29,360 bases of DNA from a virus. Position 1 is the first letter of the stretch, and each line of letters opens with the position of its first letter. Made by a program: the position numbers and the translations under genes. Of the stretch, positions 2,451 through 28,911 are shown piece by piece. Under the pieces are notes generated by a model that was given only the letters and a program-made list of their open reading frames with translations, was not told the DNA's origin and did not search any database. Location: IMG/VR virus record IMGVR_UViG_3300037137_001530, positions 1 through 29,360 of that record; one strand, 5' to 3'.

Positions 2451-3058
2451 TAAATTGGTTGGGTGGGTTGTACAGAGAGTTACACCACGTTAACGTTCCG
2501 GATTCGGATACCGGATACGAGCCTTCTCTCGTGATACTCGATCATAAGAAGAAGGGTAGGTCGTTTATCATACCCGTATCTGCGATGTGGAAATACGTTG
2601 ACCCAATTGACTACAGCGAGGATGCCGTCGCTACTAAGGCAGATTGGTCTGATTTCAATAAGATTGTGATGAGGGCGAACCGAGTCTTGAGAGGAGGGTC
2701 TAAATCAGAATTCGTTCAAGTTAAATCTTCCTCTGACGACAAGAGAGAAGCGATGATGGATGTGGCCGCGTGCCAGTTTTCGTACGCATTCCACAAATCC
2801 ACCGCCGTTTATCTGTGTACTGGATATAACCTGGCTAAGTGTATGCAGATGTTCCAGATATCCCCAACGGTTCAAGCTGCAGCGCAGTTGCTGCTGTGGA
2901 TTCAGTCTCGGTTGGATGACCTGAAGAATATGCCAGAACCAGAGAAGGAGGAACAGTACGTGGGAGGAGAAGCCGATATATTCGTCGACGGAAAGAGAGT
3001 CGCGACGAAGGAGATGACTGTGAGCGAGACAGAATTAGTGGTGCACGAAAATGCCTAG
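2447..3058 (+). CDS. hypothetical protein between terminase and portal
   Basis: A 203-residue protein that I do not recognise. The N-terminus (MINWLGGLYREL) is followed by a mixed alpha/beta region with LVILDHKKKGRSFIIPVSAMWKY-like strands. A helical section around residues 100-160 carries three Cys (CQFSY, CTGYNLAKCM), and the C-terminus is acidic (PEPEKEEQYVGGEADIFVDG). It starts by ATGA overlap without its own ribosome site and overlaps the portal gene by 8 bases, so it is probably made in step with them. A head-assembly or packaging accessory role is possible only by position. Confidence 0.7.
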   Translation: MINWLGGLYRELHHVNVPDSDTGYEPSLVILDHKKKGRSFIIPVSAMWKYVDPIDYSEDAVATKADWSDFNKIVMRANRVLRGGSKSEFVQVKSSSDDKREAMMDVAACQFSYAFHKSTAVYLCTGYNLAKCMQMFQISPTVQAAAQLLLWIQSRLDDLKNMPEPEKEEQYVGGEADIFVDGKRVATKEMTVSETELVVHENA

Positions 3059-5231
3059 TTACGATATAAATAGACACGACGCGAGCGATAAGCACGTAGC
3101 CCCATCGCTTCGAACTAAGGAGCAAGGTGGGGTGTCTCTCGTTACCGGAGAACGAACGCACGTGTTGGACGGAGCGGATTACCAGCTCCGGTTTAAGAAG
3201 CTTCAGCAGTGGCGTCGTCAGGCTAGGGTCGCTCAAGCGGATAATCGCACTGAGATGGCCATCGACGAAGATTTTTACGATGGAATTCAGATGGACGCTG
3301 AGGATCTGATAATCTTAGCCGATAGGTCCCAAGCTCCTGTCGTCTTTAACGTGATAAAGAACGCCCTTAATTGGGTCATTGGCACTGAGAAGAAGAGTCG
3401 CGTGGACTGGAGAGTATTGCCAAGGAAGAAGACTAACTCGGCGGACGCGAAGGTGAAAACGAAAGTTATGAAGTATGTGAGCGACGTCAATAAGGTTGAG
3501 TACGCTCGCAGCGAAGCGTTCATAGAAGCAGCGTGTTCTGGTATTGGGTGGTTAGAGTGTGGTGCTCGTAACACCGACGAAGTTCTCTTCGTTCGTTCAG
3601 AGAGGTGGAGGAACATGTGGTTTGACCACCTTGGTACTGCTCTTGATGGAAGTGATATGCGCTACGTCTTCAGAGAGAAATGGGTTGACTTAGATATCGT
3701 CGAGTGTATGTTCCCCGAGAGAAAGAATGAGTTGAAGGTGTTATCTGAAGGGGTCAACAGCTTATATCCGTATCACCCCGATGATACCGTTATCACAGAC
3801 AATGCGTCAGAGTTTGACCTTGAGAGCGACCTTGATTCGTTGTTCGGCGGTCCTTTTGACGGAATGAGGGAGAGACTTAAGGTCGTTGAGATGAATTATA
3901 AGATGCCACAGATCGTTCCAATTATGAAATTAAGAGATCCTGATACGCCTTACGGATCTCTTGATGGTGCGATTTATAGACCAGAATATCCTGATCACCA
4001 GTACTTAGTGAAAGGAAAGTATTTTACTGTGTCCGACGCGATGAGATTAGTCGTTCGTTGCGCGATGTGGGCTGGCCGAACGCTGCTTCAAGACACAATA
4101 TCTCCGTATAATCACAACAAATTCGCGTTCGTTCCGATATTCTGTTATCGACGGAAGCGAGATAATATGCCGTACGGTATAATAAGGGATCTCCGCGATC
4201 CTCAGAGCGATCTCAATAAGAGGAGATCAAAAGCTTTATTTCTTCTTTCAGCAAATCAGGTTGTCGTTGAGAAAGGTGCTGTCGATGATATCGCAGATTT
4301 TCACAGCGAGTTACAGAAACCAGATGGAATTGGTGTGGTTAATGAAGGTAAGATGAATATGTGGAGGCAGATCGAACACACCAAACAGGTCGGAGAACAC
4401 GCGCAGATGGCGCAAGACGACGAGCGCTTCATACACTCAATATCAGGCGTGACGAACGATAGTGAGTGGATGGCGAAAAGAGAGCTCAGCGGAAAAGCCA
4501 TAAACCTTATGCAGAATCAAGGAATGACGGCGCACGGAGTTATATTTGATAATTATTTCTTCGCTCATCAGACGATGGGTGAGATGTTGCTCTCGCTCAT
4601 GGAGCAGTTCTACGATCAGCAGAAAGAGATAAGAATAACTGGAGATCAGTACAAGGACGAGTTCGTTGAGATCAATAAGATGAACGACGATGGAACGATA
4701 CAGAATTCTATCACATCCTCAAAGGCTGACTTCATCGTTGGTAAGCAAGATTATAGAGAGACGATAAGAATAGCGATGCTTGAGCAGTTCATAGAGCTCG
4801 TGAATACGGTCGGAAAAGTTAGCCCAGAAGTTTCGCTTGCTCTCCTTGACCTAGTCGTTGAGTTGATGGACGATCTTCCGAATAAGGATGAAGCGGTGGC
4901 TAGGATTCGTAAGATTAATAAGCAACACGCGCCTGAGGACGAGATGTCTCAGGAAGAGAAGATGAAACAGTACCAACAAGATATGCAGGCCGCGCAGGAG
5001 ATGCAAGCGATGAAACAACTGCAGCAAGCCTTGCTTCAAATACAGGTTTCGGAGGGTCAGAGTAAAGTCGCGAAAAATAAAGCGGAAGCTGCGATGAAGA
5101 AGCTTGAAGGATTTCTTAAAGCTCTTGAAGCGGCTGGAACTGTGGATATGGCTCCGCATTTAGTTGAGGCCGCAGACACTATCGTGACAGAAGCGCAGAA
5201 TATAACCAATTCAACAGAGGGAGGGCAATAG
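3051..5231 (+). CDS. portal protein (P22-type)
   Basis: The portal forms the dodecameric ring at the head vertex through which DNA is packaged and ejected. The 726-residue length and sequence fit the P22-like portal family. Near the N-terminus is DEDFYDG (72-78), followed by a region ending VVFNVIKNALNWVIGTEKKSRVDWRVLP (97-124), the wing/stem entry typical of these proteins. Other family-like blocks are the FAFVPIFCYRRKRDNMPYGIIRDLRDPQSDLNKRRS section and SGVTNDSEWM. The last 100 residues are a Gln/Met/Lys-rich coiled coil, likely a barrel-like extension. The start ATG overlaps the upstream gene and has only a weak ribosome site. Confidence 0.92.
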   Translation: MPSYDINRHDASDKHVAPSLRTKEQGGVSLVTGERTHVLDGADYQLRFKKLQQWRRQARVAQADNRTEMAIDEDFYDGIQMDAEDLIILADRSQAPVVFNVIKNALNWVIGTEKKSRVDWRVLPRKKTNSADAKVKTKVMKYVSDVNKVEYARSEAFIEAACSGIGWLECGARNTDEVLFVRSERWRNMWFDHLGTALDGSDMRYVFREKWVDLDIVECMFPERKNELKVLSEGVNSLYPYHPDDTVITDNASEFDLESDLDSLFGGPFDGMRERLKVVEMNYKMPQIVPIMKLRDPDTPYGSLDGAIYRPEYPDHQYLVKGKYFTVSDAMRLVVRCAMWAGRTLLQDTISPYNHNKFAFVPIFCYRRKRDNMPYGIIRDLRDPQSDLNKRRSKALFLLSANQVVVEKGAVDDIADFHSELQKPDGIGVVNEGKMNMWRQIEHTKQVGEHAQMAQDDERFIHSISGVTNDSEWMAKRELSGKAINLMQNQGMTAHGVIFDNYFFAHQTMGEMLLSLMEQFYDQQKEIRITGDQYKDEFVEINKMNDDGTIQNSITSSKADFIVGKQDYRETIRIAMLEQFIELVNTVGKVSPEVSLALLDLVVELMDDLPNKDEAVARIRKINKQHAPEDEMSQEEKMKQYQQDMQAAQEMQAMKQLQQALLQIQVSEGQSKVAKNKAEAAMKKLEGFLKALEAAGTVDMAPHLVEAADTIVTEAQNITNSTEGGQ

Positions 5232-5232
5232 T

Positions 5233-5748
5233 ATGGCAACAGGTGATCAGACGTTATTGCAGACTTTAGGTTACGAGATACTCGCTGTCTGTAACAATGG
5301 AACGTTAATCTTTGAAGCGTGTAGCGATGGGTGGTTACGGACATATGCGATTGCAGGTGGTGCGGTAGTAGATTTAGCAAAATTCGACGAGGGAATAGTA
5401 GATATAGATACTGATAACACTAATATCTATGTTCTACTTGAGACTGGAAAAGTCAAAAAGTGCGCTATTTCTGGCGGTGCAGTGACTGAAATTGGTACTA
5501 GTACTGGGCGTTTGCTTGCTAATAGGCCGAAGGCTATAACGTATTATAACGGAATTCTTTACATCGCTGAAGAAGGTGGATTTATGGTCAGCATAACGAC
5601 CGCCGGAATTACTTCGCTTTCGCCGAGCATTTCGCCTAGTAAATCGCCGTCATTGTCGCCGAGTAAATCGCCGTCATTGAGTCCGTCGATATCGCCGAGT
5701 AAATCGCCGTCATTGAGTCCGTCGATATCACCGTCACCGTCGACGTAA
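5233..5748 (+). CDS. propeller-like small protein with Ser-Pro-Ser repeat tail
   Basis: A 171-residue protein starting one base after the portal stop, with GGGAGGG at 5219-5225. Residues 1-128 have the short beta-strand/turn pattern of propeller blades (LIFEACSDGWLRTYAIAGGAV, NIYVLLETGKVKKCAISGGAV, ITYYNGILYIAEEGG). Residues 130-171 are low-complexity SPSxSPS repeats ending in ISPSPST. The same tail design closes the gene at 11487. A gene of this kind between portal and scaffold is unusual; it may be an added (moron-like) virion surface protein. There are too few blades for a complete propeller, so it may oligomerise or be a partial domain. Function is unknown. Confidence 0.72.
   Translation: MATGDQTLLQTLGYEILAVCNNGTLIFEACSDGWLRTYAIAGGAVVDLAKFDEGIVDIDTDNTNIYVLLETGKVKKCAISGGAVTEIGTSTGRLLANRPKAITYYNGILYIAEEGGFMVSITTAGITSLSPSISPSKSPSLSPSKSPSLSPSISPSKSPSLSPSISPSPST
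5620..5745 (+). repeat. in-frame repeats encoding SPSxSPS (CG-rich version)
   Basis: The 18-base block agtaaatcgccgtcattg occurs at 5638, 5662 and 5698. The last two copies lie inside a 36-bp direct repeat (5662 to 5698) that is exact for at least 32 bases. The encoded unit is Ser-Pro-Ser plus Ile, Lys or Leu, built mainly from TCG, CCG and AGT codons. Confidence 0.9.
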
Positions 5749-5774
5749 GATGAAATAAAAGGAGGATTTGAAAA

Positions 5775-6734
5775 ATGCCAGGACAGTCTAAGGAAAAAGA
5801 CGAAATAATTATTCCAGATGAGGAGAAGATGATCGTTCCAGAAGGGTATACAGAAGAGGAATGGTTGGGTCTCTCTGAAGGAGAGAGAACGGCTATACAA
5901 TCGAAGGAAGAGGACGATGAAAAAGAGGAACTTACTGAGGCGCAGTTAAAATCCATAGCGGAAGAGCCTCCGAAGGAAGAGCCTCCGAAGGAAGAGCCTC
6001 CGAAGGAAGAGCCTCCGAAGGAAGAGCCTCCGAAGGAAGAGCCTCCGAAGGAACGAATTTCTGATGAAACGTTACTATCATTTCGACCGACGATCGACGA
6101 AACGACTCTTCCAATTCCTGGAGAGGAGTTTATTACGGACGAGATTCAGGTCCAGTTAGATGAATTGGAGAAGAAGTATACGGACGAAGAACTTCCTCTC
6201 AAAGATTATATGAGTCAAAGAGACGTCTTAAATCGGAGAATCTCATCTGAAAATAACGCGGCGTATCAACTGACTAGGGAACAAGCGAGAGCAGATCTTA
6301 CTTGGAAAGCAGAACAGACCGCGTTTTTCCGGGCTCGTCCAGAGTACGAATATGCTAAGGACGGATCTTTAAAGGGTAAGTTGTTGTACGGAGCTCTTAA
6401 TCAGGCGGTTAAAGACATTGATTTGAATCCTGAGTATACTGGATTATCAGGTGTAGCTCTTCTCGTTCGAGCTGATAAGATGGTTAAAGAGGCTTTTGGA
6501 CTCAATAAATTGCCTGAAATTAAGAAAGAAGAGAAGAAGGAGGATAAGAAAGCGGAATTAAAACCGCCGGTTCAAGTACCAGATCTCAAAACTTTAGCAG
6601 ATATTCCTGCGGCTCAAATGCCCGAGACCGATAGTCCATGGAATGCGCTGGATAAATTGTCAGGTGACGCGTTCGAATCAGCGTTGGAGAGATTAACGCC
6701 GGCACAACGCGATCGGTACTTGGCTTCTAAGTGA
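5775..6734 (+). CDS. probable capsid scaffolding protein
   Basis: A 319-residue, strongly acidic and helical protein immediately before the capsid genes, the usual place for the scaffold that shapes the prohead and is lost on maturation. The N-terminus is Glu/Asp-rich (EEWLGLSEGERTAIQSKEED), followed by six EEPPK repeats (about 63-92). A helical middle contains QVQLDELEKKYTDEELPLKDYMSQR, and the end is FESALERLTPAQRDRYLASK, a pattern I associate with scaffolds beside N4-gp56-type capsid genes. AGGAGG lies 9-14 bases before the ATG. No protease motif is visible. Identification is by position, composition and C-terminal pattern. Confidence 0.7.
   Translation: MPGQSKEKDEIIIPDEEKMIVPEGYTEEEWLGLSEGERTAIQSKEEDDEKEELTEAQLKSIAEEPPKEEPPKEEPPKEEPPKEEPPKEEPPKERISDETLLSFRPTIDETTLPIPGEEFITDEIQVQLDELEKKYTDEELPLKDYMSQRDVLNRRISSENNAAYQLTREQARADLTWKAEQTAFFRARPEYEYAKDGSLKGKLLYGALNQAVKDIDLNPEYTGLSGVALLVRADKMVKEAFGLNKLPEIKKEEKKEDKKAELKPPVQVPDLKTLADIPAAQMPETDSPWNALDKLSGDAFESALERLTPAQRDRYLASK
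5961..6050 (+). repeat. six perfect 15-bp tandem repeats (EEPPK)
   Basis: The unit gaagagcctccgaag is repeated six times without a mismatch at 5961, 5976, 5991, 6006, 6021 and 6036. Each copy encodes Glu-Glu-Pro-Pro-Lys. The absence of silent differences points to recent expansion by slippage, so copy number may vary between phages of the population. Confidence 0.97.
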
Positions 6735-6735
6735 T

Positions 6736-6918
6736 ATGGCTTTAATAAAGATCATAGGAGTCGGAGATCAACTGATCTTTAACGTAAAAGGAGAGGAGAT
6801 TTCTGTGACGCTTTCGGAAAAAGCAGGAAGACAAGCTGTTCTGAAGATCGTCGCGGATAAGTCGATAGGGATAACCACAGTGTCAAAGGACAAGGTGTGG
6901 GTAGGGACACCGGCATGA
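6736..6918 (+). CDS. 60-residue protein, possibly CsrA-like
   Basis: Starts one base after the scaffold stop and lacks a clear ribosome site, so it is probably coupled. The sequence (GDQLIFNVKGEEISVTLSEK, then GRQAVLKIVADKSIGITTVSKD) resembles the carbon storage regulator pattern: G-(E/D)-x-(I/L), a polar turn, EIxVT, G-x-Q-x2-L-x-I-x-A-x-(K/R)-x-(I/V)-x-(I/V). CsrA binds GGA motifs in mRNA and controls translation. The arginine that CsrA proteins carry in the VHRxE segment is replaced (ITTVS), so RNA binding may be altered or lost. An alternative is a small head-associated beta protein. The family assignment is tentative. Confidence 0.5.
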   Translation: MALIKIIGVGDQLIFNVKGEEISVTLSEKAGRQAVLKIVADKSIGITTVSKDKVWVGTPA

Positions 6919-6926
6919 AGTCGGAC

Positions 6927-6944
6927 AAGTCTCTTTAGAGACTT
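6927..6944 (+). terminator. 7-bp hairpin upstream of capsid gene (weak terminator or processing site)
   Basis: AAGTCTC (6927-6933) pairs perfectly with GAGACTT (6938-6944) around a TTTA loop. The following sequence agtttatt is T-rich but not a clean T-run. It could reduce read-through or protect the capsid mRNA 5' end. Confidence 0.45.
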
Positions 6945-6951
6945 AGTTTAT

Positions 6952-6969
6952 TAATACGACCTAGGATGG
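6952..6969 (+). promoter_or_regulatory. T7-promoter-like sequence before the capsid gene
   Basis: TAATACGAC at 6952-6960 equals the upstream half of the T7 RNA polymerase promoter. The next nine bases, CTAGGATGG, agree with the T7 consensus at four positions including the +1 G. It lies 20 bases before the capsid ATG, directly after a hairpin, as in T7 before gene 10. It may be chance: no polymerase gene is in the window and no second copy was found between genes. Confidence 0.25.
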
Positions 6970-6989
6970 TCAGAAGAAGGAGGTAGTAA

Positions 6990-8102
6990 ATGGCGCAAAC
7001 CATCATAGGTTTGAATGACGCAAAAGCAGTAAAGCGCTACTCCGGAAACCTCGCGGTTGACGTTGGGCGCAAAGGGTATTTTACCAGAAAGTTTATGGGA
7101 AAAGGCAATGTCCCAACAAAACCTATCTGGCAACTTACTGATCTTGAAGCGGATGCCGGGGAGCAAATCACTTACGATCTTTCTATGCAGCTCAATATGC
7201 AACCAATAGAGGGTGACAGAGAACTGCACGGGAAAGAAGAAGCGCTCGTATTCTACACAGACGTCGTCTACATCGATCAGATGAGAGGTGGCGCGGATTG
7301 CGGTGGTAGGATGACGAGGAAGAGAACCCTTCACGACCTTCGTCAGGTCGCGAGAGCAAGGTCCACAGATTGGTGGGCAAGGGTATTTGATGAGGTAATT
7401 TTCATGTACCTCTCGGGTTCGCGCGGAACGAACAGCGAATTTGTATTTCCGACAACTTACTCCGGATTTGCTAACAACACCCTTACGGCCCCGGATACAA
7501 ACCATCTAGTATACGGCGGAGTTGCTACGGCTAAGACCAATCTCGCTTCGACTGATACGATGAGCACTCTCCCTATCGACCGAGCGGTTGCTTACGCCGA
7601 GATGATGGGTGGAGGCGGACCTGCTTACTCAGAGATTCCGCAGATCCAGAAGTGCGAGATTGACGGAGAAGAGTTGTTCCTCTGTATCATGGACCCTTAC
7701 CAAGCGTTCAACCTTAGGAGAAATACGACGACCAACGATTGGGCTGATATTCAGAAAGCCATCGCAACTGCGGTTGGTCGCGAGAGCATGTTCCTTAAAG
7801 GTGGAATGGGTATTTGGAACGGAGTAGTCCTTCACAAACACCAGAACTGCATTCGGTTCACTGATTATGGATCAGGTGGAGTGACAAGTGCCACAAGAGC
7901 GTTGTTCCTTGGATTACAGGCAGGTGCTATGGCATTTGGTTCTCCTGGTCAGGACCTTCGCTTCGGGTGGCATGAGGAAGGGCGTGACAATGATAACCGG
8001 GTCGTAATTACCACTCACACGATCTGGGGATTCAAGAAAGTCACGTTTAACGGAAATGACTTTGGTGTGATGGCGATCGATACGGCCGCCACAAAACCGT
8101 AA
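6990..8102 (+). CDS. major capsid protein (N4-gp56/DUF4043-like)
   Basis: The main shell protein, 370 residues, with an HK97-type fold expected for this family. Recognisable features are the N-terminal AVKRYSGNLAVDVGRKGYFTRKFMGKG region, the GEQITYDLSMQLNMQPIEGD segment with LHGKEEALVFYTDVVYIDQMRGG (the E-loop side), and the RTLHDLRQVARARSTDWWARVFDEVIFMYLSG helix typical of N4-gp56 family capsid proteins. AGAAGGAGGTAG (6976-6986) precedes the ATG. Upstream are the scaffold and a promoter-like element; downstream is a second head protein and a terminator. GC content and CpG frequency are high here, as in the other core head genes. Confidence 0.9.
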   Translation: MAQTIIGLNDAKAVKRYSGNLAVDVGRKGYFTRKFMGKGNVPTKPIWQLTDLEADAGEQITYDLSMQLNMQPIEGDRELHGKEEALVFYTDVVYIDQMRGGADCGGRMTRKRTLHDLRQVARARSTDWWARVFDEVIFMYLSGSRGTNSEFVFPTTYSGFANNTLTAPDTNHLVYGGVATAKTNLASTDTMSTLPIDRAVAYAEMMGGGGPAYSEIPQIQKCEIDGEELFLCIMDPYQAFNLRRNTTTNDWADIQKAIATAVGRESMFLKGGMGIWNGVVLHKHQNCIRFTDYGSGGVTSATRALFLGLQAGAMAFGSPGQDLRFGWHEEGRDNDNRVVITTHTIWGFKKVTFNGNDFGVMAIDTAATKP

Positions 8103-8128
8103 GCAAATAAAGAAAGGAGGTATATAAT

Positions 8129-8641
8129 ATGACAGACGTATTTGTGCCGTTAGACATTTACATTGAACCGCCGATTGCGGCAATACCGGGTTCAAGAGTT
8201 ATTCACAAATCAGTCACGTTGACCGCGGCTCAACAGGTCATCACCAACTACTTTGGTTTTGGCGTTTTGCCTGCTGGTCACAAATTGATGGATTGTGTCC
8301 TTGAGTCTGCTGACATTGATGGCGCCACTTCTCACACCATCTCTGTTGGTATTCTCAACACCTATTATGGACAAGCTCCGGCTACAGTAGCTGTTCCTGC
8401 GGCATATAGTTCCGGTGGTGCGACGAATACAGGTACTGCGCCTGCACTTGTGTCGGGGCAGAACGTTCTTACCGCGTCCACCGTCGGACAGGCTGGAGGT
8501 CGAGTTTACCCTTCGCTCGCGTTCACTGAAGCGATTGGGGTGGACTACAGTAAGGACCGAATTATCGCGCTGTATTTTCCAGCGGTCGGTACTTCGGTCG
8601 AAGGAAAAGTCGGTCTGATTTACACGATCGACGCTGCGTAG
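8129..8641 (+). CDS. small head protein following capsid (decoration/structural candidate)
   Basis: A 170-residue beta-rich protein with no signal peptide. The block VTLTAAQQVITNYFGFGVLPAGHKLMDCVLESADIDGATSHTISVGI resembles small structural proteins that follow N4-gp56-type capsid genes, in which a strand with polar turns precedes a statement of expected particle properties in Ala/Thr-rich loops. AAAGGAGG lies at 8112-8119. The gene is co-transcribed with the capsid gene and closed by a terminator, so it is probably needed in high amounts, as expected for a decoration or minor head protein. The exact role is inferred from position. Confidence 0.65.
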   Translation: MTDVFVPLDIYIEPPIAAIPGSRVIHKSVTLTAAQQVITNYFGFGVLPAGHKLMDCVLESADIDGATSHTISVGILNTYYGQAPATVAVPAAYSSGGATNTGTAPALVSGQNVLTASTVGQAGGRVYPSLAFTEAIGVDYSKDRIIALYFPAVGTSVEGKVGLIYTIDAA

Positions 8642-8653
8642 CATTTAAGGATG

Positions 8654-8676
8654 GAGGGGACGAAAGTCCCCTCTTT
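8654..8676 (+). terminator. Rho-independent terminator after the head genes
   Basis: A perfect 8-bp stem GAGGGGAC / GTCCCCTC (8654-8661 and 8666-8673) closes a GAAA tetraloop and is followed by TTT and an A/T stretch. It lies 12 bases after the stop of the head gene ending at 8641, separating the capsid transcripts from the tail genes. Confidence 0.85.
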
Positions 8677-8706
8677 AAAATAAGATAAGGATATAGGAGG
8701 ATAGGA

Positions 8707-9138
8707 ATGTTGATAGAATGTTTGATAAAAAGAGAAGGCCCGACGCCTGTAGAATTGGGGAAGACGCGCTACATGTTTATGCCGATACCTAATTTGAATC
8801 GAAAAAAAGGTGAACCATCGACTTCTGTGTGCGAGATTAATTCTGAAGAACACCTTGAGTTTCTCCTCAAATCTAATCAATTTCGTCAATACAAAGATGG
8901 ACAGATTATCGAGGAGGTAAAGGACTTAGATCTTACCGGATTTAGTATCGTAAAACATCAAGAAGGCAGAATGGAGGGTTATCGCGTAGAAGATGGTACG
9001 GTAAAACCCAAGGAATACATAGGAAGTGACGGAATTAGGAGACAATCATTACAGAATCTCCCTCCGTTTGATACAGAGTTTACTGCATGGCAATGGCTGA
9101 GAGAAGAAGTTAGTATGAGCGTTAAAGAGGAGGGATAA
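8707..9138 (+). CDS. hypothetical phage structural-region protein
   Basis: A 143-residue protein with AGGAGG at 8696-8701. The first half (MLIECLIKREGPTPVELGKTRYMFMPIPN...STSVCEINSEEHLEFLLKSNQFRQY) resembles a small family often found just after capsid genes, with a beta hairpin, a Val-Cys-Glu-Ile strand and a helix ending in a Phe/Tyr pair. The C-terminal half is charged and ends FTAWQWLREEVSMSVKEEG. No catalytic motif is seen. The stop overlaps the next start (TAATG). A head-completion or connector accessory is plausible by position. Confidence 0.65.
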   Translation: MLIECLIKREGPTPVELGKTRYMFMPIPNLNRKKGEPSTSVCEINSEEHLEFLLKSNQFRQYKDGQIIEEVKDLDLTGFSIVKHQEGRMEGYRVEDGTVKPKEYIGSDGIRRQSLQNLPPFDTEFTAWQWLREEVSMSVKEEG

Positions 9139-10085
9139 TGGCTCAAACTATCAGTACGTTGACCGTCGACGTATTGCCGAGATTAACGATGGCGCCCAAG
9201 AAGGGCATCTCAATCTATCAAGCGGCGAATTCAATACAATCTCTGTTATACAAGAAATTGGTTGATAGAGGGTCTGATCTCGTGGCTTCTGGTAATTTAG
9301 AACTTGTGATACCTGCTTTTGGGTATACAGTATCATTACCTACCGATTTTGTGTCAATGGCCGAAAAGCCTAAGGCGCAAGAGCTTTATACGGATTGGAT
9401 GGCCGGTACAGTTACTTCATACGATTCAATTACGGGGATTCTCGTGATAAATTCCATAAGTTCTGCTGGAACAGATTCTCTCAGCGATTGGAGAATTGCT
9501 CTCGCAGAAACGCCTGGAACTCCATCGACCATAATAGGAAGTTCAACGACGACATTAACGCCTATTACTGGACCTATTACGCTGACGATGGAATCTGGTG
9601 CTACGTTAGTTCCGGGGGATTACGTGTTTATCGTACCAGCAAATTTACCAGATAACCTTAAATCGATGCACAAATGGTTGAATCCATCGTACCTCTTAGA
9701 AGATCATGATCATGACCTTCATTGGTGGACGTCGTACGGATTAGTTAGCTTTGACTACGAACCGCCGTGTAACCGACCGACCTATTATAAGGTGGTAGGA
9801 AATACGCTTTTTGTTAGACCTAAAGTCGTCATAAACGTGTCAATTACCGGGAGATATAACCAAAAACCTGTAGATTTTACGAGACCGGACGACGTTATTC
9901 CATGGAATGGATTGTTTTACGAGGTATTTAGAGAAGGAGTTGTGAGGATAATTTCAAAGCAATTATCTATGCCAGATACTGATGCTGATTTTATGAAATT
10001 TTTTTATCGAGAAGTAGATATAATCGTAAATTCTCGGTATAGGATTTTACCGACGAGAAGGATGAGGAGGGCATATTGGTTATGA
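9138..10085 (+). CDS. probable head-tail connector protein
   Basis: A 315-residue protein starting within TAATG, with GAGGAGGG upstream. The N-terminus is helical (SIYQAANSIQSLLYKKLVDRGSDLVAS), followed by LVIPAFGYTVSLPTDFVSMAEKP, a strand-turn pattern seen in phage adaptor proteins. A fibre-like beta module (TSYDSITGILVINSISSAG...DWRIALAETPG, about 95-135) is inserted. The second half has WLNPSYLLEDHDHDLHWW and WNGLFYEVFREGVVRII, and a basic helical end RYRILPTRRMRRAYWL. Position between capsid and adaptor genes supports a connector role; the precise ring position is unknown. Confidence 0.62.
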   Translation: MAQTISTLTVDVLPRLTMAPKKGISIYQAANSIQSLLYKKLVDRGSDLVASGNLELVIPAFGYTVSLPTDFVSMAEKPKAQELYTDWMAGTVTSYDSITGILVINSISSAGTDSLSDWRIALAETPGTPSTIIGSSTTTLTPITGPITLTMESGATLVPGDYVFIVPANLPDNLKSMHKWLNPSYLLEDHDHDLHWWTSYGLVSFDYEPPCNRPTYYKVVGNTLFVRPKVVINVSITGRYNQKPVDFTRPDDVIPWNGLFYEVFREGVVRIISKQLSMPDTDADFMKFFYREVDIIVNSRYRILPTRRMRRAYWL

Positions 10086-11128
10086 TAGGAACTTATACAG
10101 ACATTTTAACAGATTTAGCGAGATTTATAACTGAGGTAAATAACGTTAACATTGTTCAGATGTGCGGATTAGCGAAAGGTACCTCTACTCATACACTTAA
10201 GACGACGCAACAAGTGGTATATTCTCTTTTTAATAAGCAAATAACATTTGCATTGACGGATAATATAGCGATGACACCGTGTAACGTGCAAGCGGTAAAT
10301 ACGTTCTGTTATTATCTTGTCTCTGCGAATTTAGCATTTATTCCAGTAATTACCGTGACTAAAGGTACGGATAATATATACGCATTACCAACTATTCCGT
10401 GGGGAAATATCCCTATAGCTGTGTTTAAAGTGACGACAGATTTAGTTACGACGTTTACGTCAGGGACTACGGATTTAGCTGCTGTTGGACTTACTGTACA
10501 GTATTTTGATCTGGATGTTGGGATAGCGACGAAACTCCTTAATCAGGCAATGAGAGGATTAGAGAGAAAGACGAATTTTCGTGGAATGAAAATCAGAGTT
10601 GCGTACGCTTTAGCTTCTGCGTTTGCTACAGCATTCGATAATCCAATTCCTTTATACAAACAACTTCTGCAGGAAGGTGGAGCATATGGTGTTGACGCGT
10701 TGAATAAAAGATACCCTATAAATAAACAAGATATTGATGAGGTTGAGGGTGCGTTCTTGGATACACAGACTGGACCACCGCAGTTGATCACAGAAATTCC
10801 CGCGACAGAGACCATATTAACACCAGACACAATTCCTAATCTCCAATTTCTGATTAGACCGATACCTGATGCAGCGTATACTGTGGTTTTAACCGGATAT
10901 CAATATAGTCCGTACCTAGACGGGGTCATATACGATCAGAATTGGTGGACGATGTATCATTCAGATGTTCTCCTCTTTGGCGCGTTGGTTCAGGCGGAGA
11001 TGTACCTTAAAAATGATTCACGAATCCAGGTGTGGAAGGAAATGTACAACGAAAAACTCGGGGACCTCATAGTCGCGGAATCTGACGAACAATATTCAGG
11101 GTCTTCTAAATACGGACAAGGAAGATGA
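10082..11128 (+). CDS. head-tail adaptor candidate (SU10-type)
   Basis: The C-terminal third (LLFGALVQAEMYLKNDSRIQVWKEMYNEKLGDLIVAESDEQYSGSS) is the helical signature of SU10-type adaptor proteins: leucine-rich helix, Lys-Asp-x-Arg, WxxxYxxxL, then acidic residues and SGS. Adaptors sit under the portal and carry the nozzle. The N-terminal half carries a beta region (IYALPTIPWGNIPIAVFKVTTDLVTTFTSGTTDLAAVGLTVQYFDLD) common in phage fibres, so the protein may be a fusion. I chose ATG 10082, which overlaps the upstream stop (ATGA). A TTG at 10076 has better spacing from AGGAGG (10065-10070) and would add two residues. Confidence 0.65.
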   Translation: MIGTYTDILTDLARFITEVNNVNIVQMCGLAKGTSTHTLKTTQQVVYSLFNKQITFALTDNIAMTPCNVQAVNTFCYYLVSANLAFIPVITVTKGTDNIYALPTIPWGNIPIAVFKVTTDLVTTFTSGTTDLAAVGLTVQYFDLDVGIATKLLNQAMRGLERKTNFRGMKIRVAYALASAFATAFDNPIPLYKQLLQEGGAYGVDALNKRYPINKQDIDEVEGAFLDTQTGPPQLITEIPATETILTPDTIPNLQFLIRPIPDAAYTVVLTGYQYSPYLDGVIYDQNWWTMYHSDVLLFGALVQAEMYLKNDSRIQVWKEMYNEKLGDLIVAESDEQYSGSSKYGQGR

Positions 11129-11490
11129 TAGAACAGGAAGATTGGGATAAAATAAGGTCTTTAATCGACGAGATGGTGGAAAAAGGGAAGCAAGATGTTA
11201 TGCTCCTTCTCCCTGAAGTATCTGCTAACCTTTACATGCGTACGGTAGCTAAGATGAAGGCTCTTGATAAGTTTCGCGGAGAGTATAAAGAGTTAGTTCC
11301 TCATTTGGATATTGTTCGGTTTGAGATGGAAAAGGTTGAGGGTGATAACCCGGGAAAAACGTACGACGAGATTTTAAAGCTCGCTCTCCCTGAAATAAGT
11401 TCTAAGGTCAAGCAGATAGGAAAGATGGACGTATCTACGGTACAGAAGCCTACAGACCTTAAGATGAAGGGCGATTTAGGGGTATTGTGA
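11125..11490 (+). CDS. small helical protein, unknown
   Basis: A 121-residue, mainly helical, charged protein (EEDWDKIRSLIDEMVEKGKQDVMLLL..., NLYMRTVAKMKALDKFRGEYKELVPHLDIVRFEMEK). It starts in an ATGA overlap with the adaptor gene and ends in a GTGA overlap with the next gene. A tail or head-joining accessory is possible by position. No family is recognised. Confidence 0.65.
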   Translation: MIEQEDWDKIRSLIDEMVEKGKQDVMLLLPEVSANLYMRTVAKMKALDKFRGEYKELVPHLDIVRFEMEKVEGDNPGKTYDEILKLALPEISSKVKQIGKMDVSTVQKPTDLKMKGDLGVL

Positions 11491-12335
11491 AAGAAGCGAC
11501 TATACCGTTAAAGGAAATTTTAGCTAAAGGTTTAGTTCCAGCGCACAATCCCCGGAATAATCCAATGCTGACGTCCCTAATCGGCGGATACGTTTACGAA
11601 GGCGTTCTCACGACGAGCGAATTATTCTCTACGATGGAGTTACCTGCTGGAATTGAATTTGTGTTTCCGTATCCTCAATTAAAGGTATTGAGCGATGTAA
11701 TAGTGCTGATGAACGATAATCAAATATGGGAATGGAATGGAAATGGTTGGACCTCTAAGATATCTGGTCTTACTCCCGGGGTATTGTGGCGTGTCGTAGA
11801 TTTTAAGGCATTTCTCTGGTTTACTAATGGACAGATTTCTGTGGTAAAGAATGCAGCGAGCGGTGTGTACGCGATTGATACGGATAAACCATTCGGTACG
11901 TGTCTTGGTAATTATGGCGGTAAACCCTTTCTTGGGAGTCCTAATACTCCAGCGACAGGTGTTGATGCTGTATTAGAACCAGAACATTTACATTCATCAA
12001 TTTCACGTTCTAAATCCCCATCTTCATCAATAAGTCCATCATCTTCAATATCACGATCTAAATCACCCTCTAAATCTCCGTCTATTTCTCCATCTATATC
12101 ACCATCAGTAAGTCCATCATCATCAATATCACCATCAGTAAGTCCATCAATAAGTCCATCGTCATCAATTTCACCGTCTAAATCACCTTCAATATCCAGA
12201 TCTAAATCCCCATCGATATCTTTGTCTGTAAGTCCATCAATTTCACTGTCTGAATCTCCAAGTATTAGCCCATCAATTTCACCGTCTGAATCTCCAAGTA
12301 TTAGCCCATCAATTTCACCGAGTCCAAGTACATGA
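11487..12335 (+). CDS. propeller-like tail protein with Ser-Pro-Ser tail (nozzle-like N-terminal half?)
   Basis: A 282-residue protein with a GTG start coupled to the previous stop. Residues 1-168 contain P(A/V)HNPRNNP, a proline-rich PYPQLKVLSDVIVLMNDNQIWEWNGNGWTSK segment and WRVVDFKAFLWFTNGQISVV, the short strand-turn-Trp pattern of tail-nozzle beta propellers. Residues 170-282 are SPSxSPS repeats ending SISPSISPSPST, almost the same end as in the gene at 5233. The propeller part looks incomplete. The missing blades may be in the gene at 16074, suggesting a split nozzle. From the repeat region on, base composition drops in GC and CpG. Function as a nozzle is inference. Confidence 0.6.
   Translation: MKEATIPLKEILAKGLVPAHNPRNNPMLTSLIGGYVYEGVLTTSELFSTMELPAGIEFVFPYPQLKVLSDVIVLMNDNQIWEWNGNGWTSKISGLTPGVLWRVVDFKAFLWFTNGQISVVKNAASGVYAIDTDKPFGTCLGNYGGKPFLGSPNTPATGVDAVLEPEHLHSSISRSKSPSSSISPSSSISRSKSPSKSPSISPSISPSVSPSSSISPSVSPSISPSSSISPSKSPSISRSKSPSISLSVSPSISLSESPSISPSISPSESPSISPSISPSPST
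11994..12332 (+). repeat. in-frame repeats encoding SPSxSPS (AT-rich version)
   Basis: About 339 bp of degenerate tandem repeats built from TCA, CCA, AGT and CCG codons. At the 3' end, a 36-bp unit starting gtctgaatctccaagtatt repeats at 12248 and 12284. The period equals that of the repeat at 5662-5729, but the codons differ. Confidence 0.9.
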
Positions 12336-12336
12336 T

Positions 12337-15036
12337 ATGAGTAATTGGAAATTAAATAAAAATTCTGGTCCTTGGCCGTTTCAGAAGCAATATGATGTCT
12401 GGGGTTATATTAATAATCCAAGATGGACCACTCTTCAACAAAAAGAGGAAGTTGAAATTAAGTACTGGAACAAACTATTTGCTACAGTGTTCGAAGGAGA
12501 AATTGCTTATCTAGCCGGAAGTACTGCTTATGGCACACTTTATGCTAGATTATATTACAAAGACACATTATTTAATGAAGTTAATAGCCCTTCTCATAGT
12601 CAATTTGACTACGGTGGATTTCTAGAGGGTTTAAGAGACGATAAAAATAATGTAGTTTTTACTGCATTAATACGGCACAATCCATCTGTTGGTGGACATT
12701 GGGTTCATGTTATTAGAGAGAGTAAATGGTATTATACTAAAGTATTCGATGAAACTAGTTATACTTATCCATCAAAAACTTATAGGCCAAATAGACAGAA
12801 AAGTCTTGTTACAAAATCAAATGGAATTATGTGTGCAGTTTGTAGTCTTTTTACTGATAATCCTACTAATAGATTCGATCTTTTAGTTAGAACTTCCTAT
12901 GATTGGGGAAAGACATGGACTCCGGTGTTAATAGTTGCTACAAATTATGGAGGAAATCAAGATCATATAGCTATAGATGTTGCAGAGGATGGTTCGATTT
13001 ATTTACTTGCATTTAAAACTTCTGGAACAGTAGCTACTAATATTGTAGGTACTTTTAAGTCTATAGATGATGGTTTAACTTGGACTCTACAATCTGAGAC
13101 AGATATGAGAAGATTAGGAAGTAGTGCTACTTCTTATGAATCATCTTTGAGTATTAGGATAACTAATGGAATCCTTTATACTTCAACAATGTGGTCAGAT
13201 GCATATATAGGAACACATTATTCTCTAAATTATGGTGTAACTTGGGTTACTAATCATAGGTATATAAATCAACGTCCTGTATATGGTCTAGCTCAGACCG
13301 CTTACAATGATACAGTGGTTCAAGTTTTTCCAAAGAACCAATATCCTCTTGTAGAGTGGGTAGTGCATAAGAGCATTGATAGAGGTGCAAATTTTACTCA
13401 AGTATTTTCTTTTGATGGGGGTTATTTTGCAAATGATCCTGTAAATCCTTGTATAGATAATGAAAGAGATTTGTACGTAGTTACATCTCATATTCCTTTT
13501 TATAATCTAGGAGATGTATCTTATTTAGGTTATCTTGTTGGGTATAATGGATGGGAATCTGTAGAGGAAGCTAAGACCCCTCTTGATAGAGCAACTGTAT
13601 ATATTGGTCCAGGAGCTGCACCGCCATTTGGTTTACCAGAGTTAGAGTGGTGGCAAAGGAATACAGCAGATACCCATTTTCCTTGTGGCCATTGGCATAT
13701 GCAAAAATTTATTCTTGGTGTAAGTATGCTTGAAATACCTCATTCCTGTTTTAGTGATGTTGATGTTAAGACCTATATAGATGATAAAGGTCAGTTACAA
13801 GTTTGGATTGCTATGGCTATGGGTATCGATCTTGATCCAAACGGTATGCTTGTTCTTGTTTATGATTCGGGTGATAGAGTTTGGGTTCCTTCTACAGGAC
13901 CTGTGGAGTTGGATTGGGAGTTTAGTGATAAATGGAATGTTATTGATTGGCTTCCTACAAGGTATTATTATTACCCAAGAATGGAAATTGGGGACAAGAA
14001 TTTCTGGGTATGGAGTTTAGGTTATGATATGGAAACTACGGAGTATTGGGGTATTCAATCTCTTTGGGTATGGAAAGATGGAGTTATAACATATCGATAT
14101 TTTGATAAAGAATATGATGATGATAACCCCCCATACGATTATGGCGGTGCTTGGTATAAAACCGATTCTTCCAATTTAAAGGTTACTGCTGCTGGAGTTA
14201 TCGTGTGGGTTTATGAGTGGGAGTATGGAGAATCAGGAAATGATTATCAAGATATTATTTGTCAGGTTTCTCAGGACTATGGTCAAACTTGGACTAGACA
14301 CATCATTGCTCATGGGGATTGGAATTCGTTCTTAGGACCTAATCCTGAATGTAGAGCAGACTCAAGTGGTAATTTCTACATAATGTATACAGAAGAAGAT
14401 TTAGGGGTTAGAATATGGAAAAGTGTTGATAGTGGATCCAGTTGGGTTCTTATGGGTACTCTTGCAATTCCTGAAGGATTGGAGTTACTTACTATTCAAA
14501 GGGATTATGTTAGATCATATATTGATTCTACTACAGAGGATTTATGGATAATAGATGATTGTTGGCAAGCGACGAGTCATCCTATTGAGGGTTTTCATGT
14601 AGACTTTTGGAAGAGTACTGATAGTGGTGTTACTTGGAGTAAGGTTGCTACATTTTCTTTAGGTTTTGCTTTTTGGTTTATTGGTTTTGCGGTGAAGGGT
14701 AGTATGATATTAGTATCCGCAACAGAATACTATATAAGTTATGGGGTAAAAATTTATAGAAGTACAGATTCTGGTGTTAACTTCGGTATAGTTCAAGATA
14801 TGACAGGTCTTCATGTGTGGAACGAAGCCCAGGAGTTTAAGAATGATGGTGATGTATGGGTTTGGTCGGGTCAAGAGTATCATGATCCTGTAGCTAATAG
14901 ATTAGGATTCCAGATGAGTTGGGATAATGGTGCTACATGGGAGCAAGTATTAACTGATATAAGTTTTGATTATCCTAATACTACTATACCTGTGTACAGA
15001 ATATTTAAAGAGCCGCAGATTTGGACTTTACCGTAG
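12337..15036 (+). CDS. Asp-box (sialidase/BNR-fold) virion protein
   Basis: A 899-residue protein with nine Asp-box motifs (Ser-x-Asp-x-Gly-x-Thr/Ser-Trp/Phe): SYDWGKTW (187), SIDDGLTW (242), SLNYGVTW (296), SIDRGANF (346), SQDYGQTW (645), SVDSGSSW (696), STDSGVTW (760), STDSGVNF (809) and SWDNGATW (861). These mark beta-propeller blades of the sialidase/BNR kind, probably two propellers. It may bind or cleave surface glycans as a receptor-binding or depolymerase protein. Catalytic residues of a true sialidase (arginine triad, Tyr/Glu pair) could not be assigned by eye, so an enzyme activity is unproven. The gene is AT-rich and nearly free of CpG, unlike the head genes, which suggests acquisition. 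It lacks a clear ribosome site and starts one base after the previous stop. Confidence 0.8.
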   Translation: MSNWKLNKNSGPWPFQKQYDVWGYINNPRWTTLQQKEEVEIKYWNKLFATVFEGEIAYLAGSTAYGTLYARLYYKDTLFNEVNSPSHSQFDYGGFLEGLRDDKNNVVFTALIRHNPSVGGHWVHVIRESKWYYTKVFDETSYTYPSKTYRPNRQKSLVTKSNGIMCAVCSLFTDNPTNRFDLLVRTSYDWGKTWTPVLIVATNYGGNQDHIAIDVAEDGSIYLLAFKTSGTVATNIVGTFKSIDDGLTWTLQSETDMRRLGSSATSYESSLSIRITNGILYTSTMWSDAYIGTHYSLNYGVTWVTNHRYINQRPVYGLAQTAYNDTVVQVFPKNQYPLVEWVVHKSIDRGANFTQVFSFDGGYFANDPVNPCIDNERDLYVVTSHIPFYNLGDVSYLGYLVGYNGWESVEEAKTPLDRATVYIGPGAAPPFGLPELEWWQRNTADTHFPCGHWHMQKFILGVSMLEIPHSCFSDVDVKTYIDDKGQLQVWIAMAMGIDLDPNGMLVLVYDSGDRVWVPSTGPVELDWEFSDKWNVIDWLPTRYYYYPRMEIGDKNFWVWSLGYDMETTEYWGIQSLWVWKDGVITYRYFDKEYDDDNPPYDYGGAWYKTDSSNLKVTAAGVIVWVYEWEYGESGNDYQDIICQVSQDYGQTWTRHIIAHGDWNSFLGPNPECRADSSGNFYIMYTEEDLGVRIWKSVDSGSSWVLMGTLAIPEGLELLTIQRDYVRSYIDSTTEDLWIIDDCWQATSHPIEGFHVDFWKSTDSGVTWSKVATFSLGFAFWFIGFAVKGSMILVSATEYYISYGVKIYRSTDSGVNFGIVQDMTGLHVWNEAQEFKNDGDVWVWSGQEYHDPVANRLGFQMSWDNGATWEQVLTDISFDYPNTTIPVYRIFKEPQIWTLP

Positions 15037-27230: not shown

Positions 27231-27390
27231 GAAATGTGCGAAATGCAACTGGTGGTTATTGTTGGGAGAGATAAGGGAGCAGTTGAATATTAAATTAATG
27301 GGTAAACGCATGGCAACAGATAGGATATTGAGTTTATTCAGCCAAGCTGCACATAAAGTCTGTAAAGAACACTGGGATGGTAAGAGATGA
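27214..27390 (+). CDS. small CxxC...CxxH protein, unknown
   Basis: A 58-residue protein from GTG 27214, with AGGAT eight bases upstream. CAKC (8-11) and CKEH (50-53) could form a single zinc site; between them lies a basic helical part (REQLNIKLMGKRMATDRILSLFSQAAH). The frame stays open upstream to ATG 27160, but that start lies deep in the previous gene. The stop overlaps the endolysin ATG (ATGA). Confidence 0.5.
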   Translation: MEAPSEKCAKCNWWLLLGEIREQLNIKLMGKRMATDRILSLFSQAAHKVCKEHWDGKR

Positions 27391-27746
27391 CCTGGGCTGA
27401 TATAAAGCACTTCAAAGAAGCAGAATTTAGCTGTCCTGACTGTGGCAAGAACAACATAAACCTTGAATTGGTATCAAGGCTTGACCGAATCAGAACTGTT
27501 CTCAATATGCCTATGAAAATAACATCTGGTAGCAGATGTGAAGCACATAACTTAACGGTAGGTGGGAAAGATGACTCCGCACACCTCGAAGGGTTAGCAG
27601 TTGACTTCTCTGTTCCAGGGTCATCTTTCAGGTTTATTGTTCTCAGTATGTGTATGCGAATGTTCAAAAGGGTGGGTATAGGCAAGACCTTCATTCATGT
27701 GGATATTGATGAAGGCAAACCTTGGCCTGTCTGCTGGATGTACTGA
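27387..27746 (+). CDS. M15 peptidase endolysin (L-Ala-D-Glu / D-Ala-D-Ala type)
   Basis: A 119-residue, single-domain zinc peptidase expected to cleave peptidoglycan stem peptides at lysis. Motifs include the FSCPDCG N-terminal block, TSGSRCEAHNLTVGG (47-60), SAHLEGLAVDF (64-74) with zinc ligands His66 and Asp73, and FIHVDID (102-108) with the third ligand His104. This order is that of the M15A family (Peptidase_M15_3). It lacks a separate wall-binding domain, typical of lysins from Gram-negative-infecting phages. It is coupled to the previous gene by ATGA. Confidence 0.88.
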   Translation: MTWADIKHFKEAEFSCPDCGKNNINLELVSRLDRIRTVLNMPMKITSGSRCEAHNLTVGGKDDSAHLEGLAVDFSVPGSSFRFIVLSMCMRMFKRVGIGKTFIHVDIDEGKPWPVCWMY

Positions 27747-28524: not shown

Positions 28525-28911
28525 ATGGATAAATTCTACAAAGTGGCTGACGGGATTTACAGGAGTGCGAGACCTGATGATTTCTCATTGTTGAAAAGTC
28601 TGGGAATAAAGTCGAGGCTTGTACTTGAAGACTATGTTCAACAAGATGGATTGACAGAGATTTTTCATTATCCTCTCTCAGGATTTATGAAACCATCGGT
28701 TGATGATATTGAATCTTTAATATTCACGATAGATGAAAGAAAACCCTTACTCATCAACTGTCAACATGGGGTAGACCGTACAGGAATAGTGGTTGCTGCT
28801 TACAGGATAAAGGTCAACGGATGGAGCATAGATAAGGCATGGGAAGAAGCTCAAAGAATTGGAATGAGTAAATTTATATGGTGGTGGAAAGAATGTCTGG
28901 AAACGATTTAA
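28525..28911 (+). CDS. dual-specificity/tyrosine phosphatase
   Basis: A 128-residue protein with the Cys-phosphatase P-loop INCQHGVDRTG: Cys79, then five residues, Arg85. The N-terminal VADGIYRSARPDDFSLLKSLGIKSRLVLE pattern (7-35) is typical of atypical dual-specificity phosphatases (DSPc, Siw14-like). Histidine before the loop is replaced by Asn (INC). It would remove phosphate from Tyr/Ser/Thr or a small phosphorylated compound. It starts three bases after the previous stop with a weak ribosome site. A phosphatase in a lysis cassette is unusual. Intact motifs suggest activity. Confidence 0.82.
   Translation: MDKFYKVADGIYRSARPDDFSLLKSLGIKSRLVLEDYVQQDGLTEIFHYPLSGFMKPSVDDIESLIFTIDERKPLLINCQHGVDRTGIVVAAYRIKVNGWSIDKAWEEAQRIGMSKFIWWWKECLETI

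Follow-up and report, generated by a model that had tools for sequence, protein, structure and literature searches.

Two proteins of a P22-like structural gene block end in alternating-serine tails that are alike in peptide and different in codons

Two phage genes of one structural gene block, g5233 and g11487, encode proteins that end in tails with serine at every second residue, and comparison with a sister phage supports the conclusion that the tail peptide is kept by selection at the protein level. We consider it fairly probable that the tails are disordered alternating-serine arms of a kind that is probably O-glycosylated in many phages carrying such arrays. The window, that is the whole stretch of DNA analysed, comprises an entire virus record of 29,360 bases with genes in the order large terminase, portal, g5233, scaffold-like protein, major capsid protein (MCP), SU10-like adaptor, g10076, g11125, g11487 and BNR-propeller protein; further structural genes and a 1,770-aa transglycosylase protein are also present. 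By portal, the nearest named phages (35-39% identity) infect Pseudomonas, Burkholderia, Serratia and Klebsiella and have ~60 kb, so the record may lack about half of the genome. The window additionally encodes a tyrosine/dual-specificity phosphatase-like protein (28525-28911), an M15 peptidase (27387-27746) and a KTSC-domain protein (1739-2020). The features concerned are:

3051..5231, plus strand: P22-like portal protein (PF16510, E=8e-138)
5233..5748, plus strand: g5233, 171 aa, small beta-blade protein with C-terminal SPS tail, between portal and scaffold
5620..5745, plus strand: tail 1 (g5233), SPSISPSKSPSL...SISPSPST, Ser at every second residue, TCG/CCG-rich, three Lys
5647..5733, plus strand: 36-bp tandem repeat in tail 1, 2.4 copies, 92% matches (TRF)
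5722..5745, plus strand: terminal SISPSPST of tail 1
5775..6734, plus strand: scaffold-like protein with perfect 15-bp tandem repeat
6990..8102, plus strand: major capsid protein (PF13252, E=3e-50)
11487..12335, plus strand: g11487, 282 aa, GTG start, 168-aa body with blade-like strands and 114-aa SPS tail
11991..12332, plus strand: tail 2 (g11487), 114-aa alternating-serine array, TCA/TCT/CCA-rich, Lys/Arg-rich
12234..12320, plus strand: 36-bp tandem repeat in tail 2, 2.4 copies, 98% matches (TRF)
12309..12332, plus strand: terminal SISPSPST of tail 2
12337..15036, plus strand: BNR-propeller protein directly 3' of tail 2 (PF13088, E=1.5e-6, under the curated cut-off)

An earlier note on this DNA had described Ser-Pro-Ser tails with ends at or close to SISPSPST, a 36-bp period in both 3' parts and a difference in codons, and these observations hold. 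Both proteins end in exactly SISPSPST before the stop, and each tail contains one TRF array that stops 12 nt short of the stop codon. In tail 1, TCG accounts for 10 of 21 Ser codons and CCG for 10 of 11 Pro codons; in tail 2, 28 of 61 Ser codons are TCA and 17 are TCT, and 15 of 21 Pro codons are CCA, each tail mixing several different Ser codons. A degenerate SPSISPSPST-stop pattern has two sites in the whole window, namely both tail ends (0 expected from 100 shuffles). Over the last 27 residues the tails share 23 amino acids, 3 codons and 57% of nucleotides, and codon class differs at 5 of 13 aligned serines. Part of the amino acid agreement is due to the common Ser/Pro register: 19 of the 23 matches are in-register Ser or Pro, and otherwise only I, I, P and T agree. 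The two genes had been called unlinked; they are 5.7 kb apart and lie within one structural gene block.

The sister phage is represented by two contigs, L111 and L001, which derive from one metagenome and whose proteins are 79% (portal), 84% (TerL) and 91% (MCP) identical to those of the window. The scaffold is represented by residues 1-80 in L111 and by residues 67-318 in L001; because both contigs break in the same 15-bp-type repeat, their sequences very probably belong to one virus. In the window, the corresponding perfect 15-bp x 6.3 tandem repeat is located inside the scaffold-like gene (5960-6053), and it seems to be its sister counterpart that divides the sister virus into two contigs. 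L111 encodes a tailed g5233, closing in SISPSPSA before the stop, and L001 encodes a g11487 with an array, so that g5233 and g11487 each have an array in window and sister alike.

The g5233 tails of window and sister, aligned over 40 codons, are 87.5% identical in amino acids and 37.5% in codons, with 20 of 20 serines kept, six of them via switches between TCN and AGY; these figures are strong rather than exact, since repetitive tails were aligned for best fit and codons may move as an array turns over. The g5233 bodies are 60% identical in amino acids and 32% in codons. When neutral change was simulated up to an equal codon divergence, mean amino acid identity was 50%, and all serines were kept in none of 20,000 runs. 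Selection for the peptide, as proposed in the earlier note, is therefore supported, and by stronger evidence than the window alone could offer. Slippage alone, in which both tails are repeat expansions of low function, identical as short Ser-Pro codon units expand easily, would fit the recent local duplications in both tails (36-bp units, 92 and 98% matches). We regard it as very improbable: neutral divergence cannot retain 20 of 20 serines at 37.5% codon identity, and arrays of up to 1,312 aa in other phages hold register with all six Ser codons in use. The reading we prefer is that the extension is maintained by selection acting on the peptide, above all on the alternating serines, while local duplication and synonymous change turn over the underlying DNA, which would explain why the two tails, and the sister phages, are alike in protein and not in codons. 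Such codon-shuffled tails of constant peptide indicate that low-complexity sequence can face strong protein-level selection. Homology searches miss them because of repeat masking and because neither g5233 nor g11487 has a Pfam or PHROGs match.

Alternating-serine tails are not confined to this pair of phages. We define an SPSx array as at least 40 aa in a phage gene in which Ser alternates with other residues, ~40% of these being Pro; both window tails are of this kind (array calls of 49 aa for tail 1 and 117 aa for tail 2, Ser 0.92 and 0.97, Pro 0.44 and 0.36). A scan with a TCN-coded SPSISPSxSPS pattern, and hence a TCN-biased set, yielded 77 viral stretches, most of them true arrays. The arrays occur in ~50 environmental phage contigs, mostly incomplete, and the longest comprises the 1,312 aa mentioned above. 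The search for SPS tails in related phages that the earlier note had named as a check thus found them both on the same two genes of the sister and across these contigs. Serine occupies ~95-100% of register positions in most arrays, all six Ser codons occur, and Pro takes ~40% of the alternate positions. After removal of near-duplicates, the set consists of 61 linkers, 13 free tails and 10 open ends.

Against this background the window pair is less special than the earlier note had it. The array terminus is SPSPS in 29 of 86 cases, compared with 3.9% Pro at that position within arrays; being common at array ends and rare inside, the shared SISPSPS end is a habit of the family. At least two genes carry arrays in 19 of the 49 contigs, and a period of 36 fits best in 9 of 74 arrays, so that the shared 36-bp period is unremarkable by itself. 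Within a contig, arrays resemble one another in both residue and codon usage (0 of 2,000 permutations for each). Codon usage is shared in most array phages, while the codon difference of the window pair reaches the 99.2 percentile, in agreement with the earlier argument against a fresh DNA copy.

The window pair is unusual in Lys/Arg content as well. Among 84 arrays, the K/R content of both window tails and of the L111 tail exceeds that of all others; the K/R shares of non-Pro, non-Ser alternate residues are 0.30, 0.27 and 0.33 (median 0). The Lys/Arg-rich tails might thus bind an acidic partner, such as packaged DNA, lipopolysaccharide or the capsid surface, and carry no sugar. This is improbable in our judgement, as tail 2 contains Glu too, its last repeat having E at a position held by K in tail 1, the L001 array has a lower K/R share (0.14), and most arrays of the group are without K/R.

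To judge from gene position, g5233 and g11487 are probable virion proteins, each ending in what would be an intrinsically disordered SxSP extension. About 15 MCP relatives encode a blade protein of 77-131 aa without a tail between portal and scaffold, a position that is conserved in the relatives, and a blade family HMM matches the window protein with E=2e-33, its seed alignment including the window protein. In the alignment, the window g5233 body stops where most of the tail-less relatives stop; the tail is therefore an add-on to a complete blade protein, and the earlier description of a propeller domain that is stopped abruptly is misleading. A truncated propeller gene is ruled out, as the tail-less relatives end at the identical place. 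Other C-terminal sequence follows the blades in L016, L021 and L030, and a tailed homologue was found only in L111.

The AF2 model of g5233 has pLDDT above 90 across most of residues 11-120, which form three blades and hence no closed beta-propeller ring in one chain, and pLDDT below 50 at residues 127-145, part of the tail. Its best PDB match is the designed protein Ika4 (Foldseek E=3.9e-6), likewise a blade fragment, of a size that does not suffice for a closed ring by itself; the similarity is a structural analogy only, at 13% identity, and the phage protein has three blades. The g5233 body would be a propeller fragment that probably oligomerises.

For g11487, body homologues were found in L001 only among viral contigs and in none of the INPHARED phages. 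The AF2 model of the body is poor (mean pLDDT 41) with two blade-like sheets. A nozzle gene split between 11487 and 16074 was considered; the loci examined contain no relative of 16074. The L001 homologue consists of the body, a 285-aa array and a 123-aa domain, and the sequence downstream of the array differs between window and sister. Since the sister has a domain behind its array, the array would serve as a spacer there and as a bare arm in the window. Tail 2 could instead belong to the N-terminal side of a fusion protein made by frameshifting into the BNR-propeller gene, whose ATG lies 1 nt past the g11487 stop in the +1 frame, open for 35 codons upstream, and the domain behind the sister array would be in keeping with this. 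By eye no slippery sequence is seen, however, the stop-start layout is that of ordinary translational coupling, and tail 1, in unrelated context, also ends in SISPSPST and stop; we rate a fusion as the least probable of the readings considered.

The case for glycosylation comes from the array group. A GT2 glycosyltransferase domain (PF00535) is found in 37 of the 49 array contigs and in 7 of 50 controls of similar length (Fisher p=4e-10; the controls comprise 20 contigs that the same or a similar pattern had hit but that lack a true array, with 3 positives, and 30 MCP relatives, with 4), the controls being unmatched for host or habitat and some contigs in each set related, so that the association may reflect host or habitat instead of the arrays. 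GT2 density is 55 hits per Mb in array contigs and 7 in controls. The N6_N4 methylase family, taken as a control, shows no difference (10 of 49 against 5 of 50, p=0.17). In 26 of the 37 contigs a GT2 gene lies at most 5 kb from an array, with 18 expected, a value reached by 10 of 2,000 shifts. Array carriers include a tail-terminator-like protein in the head-tail operon of L103, and in L125 an SPS tail is carried by the protein behind the major head protein. In virion operons of the same two contigs (L103:4768-8657, L125:9352-12783), GT2, methyltransferase and further glycosyltransferase-like genes (Anp1-like or GT17) come directly after the SPS-tailed structural gene.

The lineage of the window is different in this respect. 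GT2 is absent from the window (29.4 kb) and from L111 and L001 (27 kb), records that are probably incomplete; no other glycosyltransferase occurs among the window genes scanned, and the rest of the sister contig carries replication-type genes (by eye). Relatives with glycosyltransferase-like cassettes beside the blade gene have no SPS tail, which counts against a glycan arm. In L006, L010, L012 and L017, proteins resembling glycosyltransferases, methyltransferases and an acyltransferase (by eye) are encoded between the portal and the tail-less blade gene. Gene content thus suggests glycosylation as the most likely modification across the array group, with no support from this phage's own genes, and glycosylation in the window phage would be the weakest step of the explanation.

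A rival account takes the arrays as unmodified elastic spacers that could be replaced by any flexible polar sequence, free tails being spacers that have lost or swapped their C-terminal domain. Of the roles that the earlier note suggested for the tails (linker, glycosylation target or display arm), that of a linker is directly visible in most other arrays (61 of 74 are linkers). In the sister, a C-terminal domain missing from the window follows the g11487 array and downstream regions differ, and the lineage is without GT2. A mere spacer, however, needs no alternate Ser retained across codon-class switches, the g5233 tail is bare in both sisters, so that a loss would not be recent, and the GT2 association is strong; on balance we think this account unlikely. 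As disordered alternating-serine arms, the preferred reading, the tails would likely serve as flexible arms projecting from the particle, added in g5233 to a complete small beta-blade protein, and in many array phages the phage glycosyltransferases would probably O-glycosylate the serines in the host cytoplasm. Quite conceivable, if short of probable, is a widespread mucin-like phage system in which glycosyltransferases encoded in or near the structural operon O-glycosylate arrays of tens to more than a thousand residues, so that the particle bears a glycan brush; arrays and enzymes would have spread together among unrelated environmental phages. If the group-level link is true, many uncultured phages may sugar-coat their particles via one dedicated acceptor sequence that is easy to recognise. 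This would bear on how particles recognise hosts and how stable they are, and would offer a substrate that can be tested for the many glycosyltransferases encoded by environmental phages.

Known systems offer a comparison. The serine-rich repeat proteins (SRRPs) of Gram-positive bacteria have long alternating-serine repeats of variable copy number that are O-glycosylated on Ser/Thr, with several glycosyltransferase genes (PMC6973325). The phage arrays, both window tails included, share the alternating-serine repeat region and differ in the high Pro content of alternate positions (~40%), in being encoded in structural operons, whereas SRRPs are SecA2-exported adhesins, and in that O-glycosylation is suggested by a group-level GT2 association, with none in the window lineage. 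GtfA (TIGR02918) is above cut-off in 0 of 49 SPS records; the arrays therefore resemble SRRPs and are not members. Ig-like domains are an optional C-terminal add-on of several classes of phage structural proteins (PMC9022992), as the arrays are too, but are folded domains in place of a disordered alternating-serine array, and for the arrays no frameshift delivery is recognised. By analogy, the arrays may function like SRRP serine-rich repeats combined with add-on Ig domains while belonging to neither. Phage glycosyltransferases are also thought to modify capsid proteins in glycosylated mycobacteriophage virions (Freeman et al. 2023, as summarised in PMC11256854); set against that summary, the acceptor in array phages would be a dedicated serine array.

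DNA and protein searches, to which low-complexity filtering applies, returned no isolated phage with an array or with the YTRG domain described below. Literature searches gave nothing on such alternating-serine arrays in phages, and no report of SPSISPS, SPSVSPS, SPSASPS, SPSLSPS or SISPSPS in phage was found in open-licence literature, which is weak evidence of novelty. A domain of ~130 aa (YTRGDxxxLPxDDxDLE) follows nine arrays (L090, L097, L101, L104, L112, L126, L147, L148 and L156), without a Pfam match in the one example scanned. Long SPS arrays are also present on contigs binned as Patescibacteria (Woese-, Yanofsky- and Zambryskibacteria; L164, L170, L186, L232, L235 and L239). Because L232 and the viral contig L150 have the same array end and C-terminal domain, some array phages may infect Patescibacteria. 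Finally, L117:1958-4197 encodes two adjacent paralogues resembling tail proteins, only one of which has a serine-rich tail.
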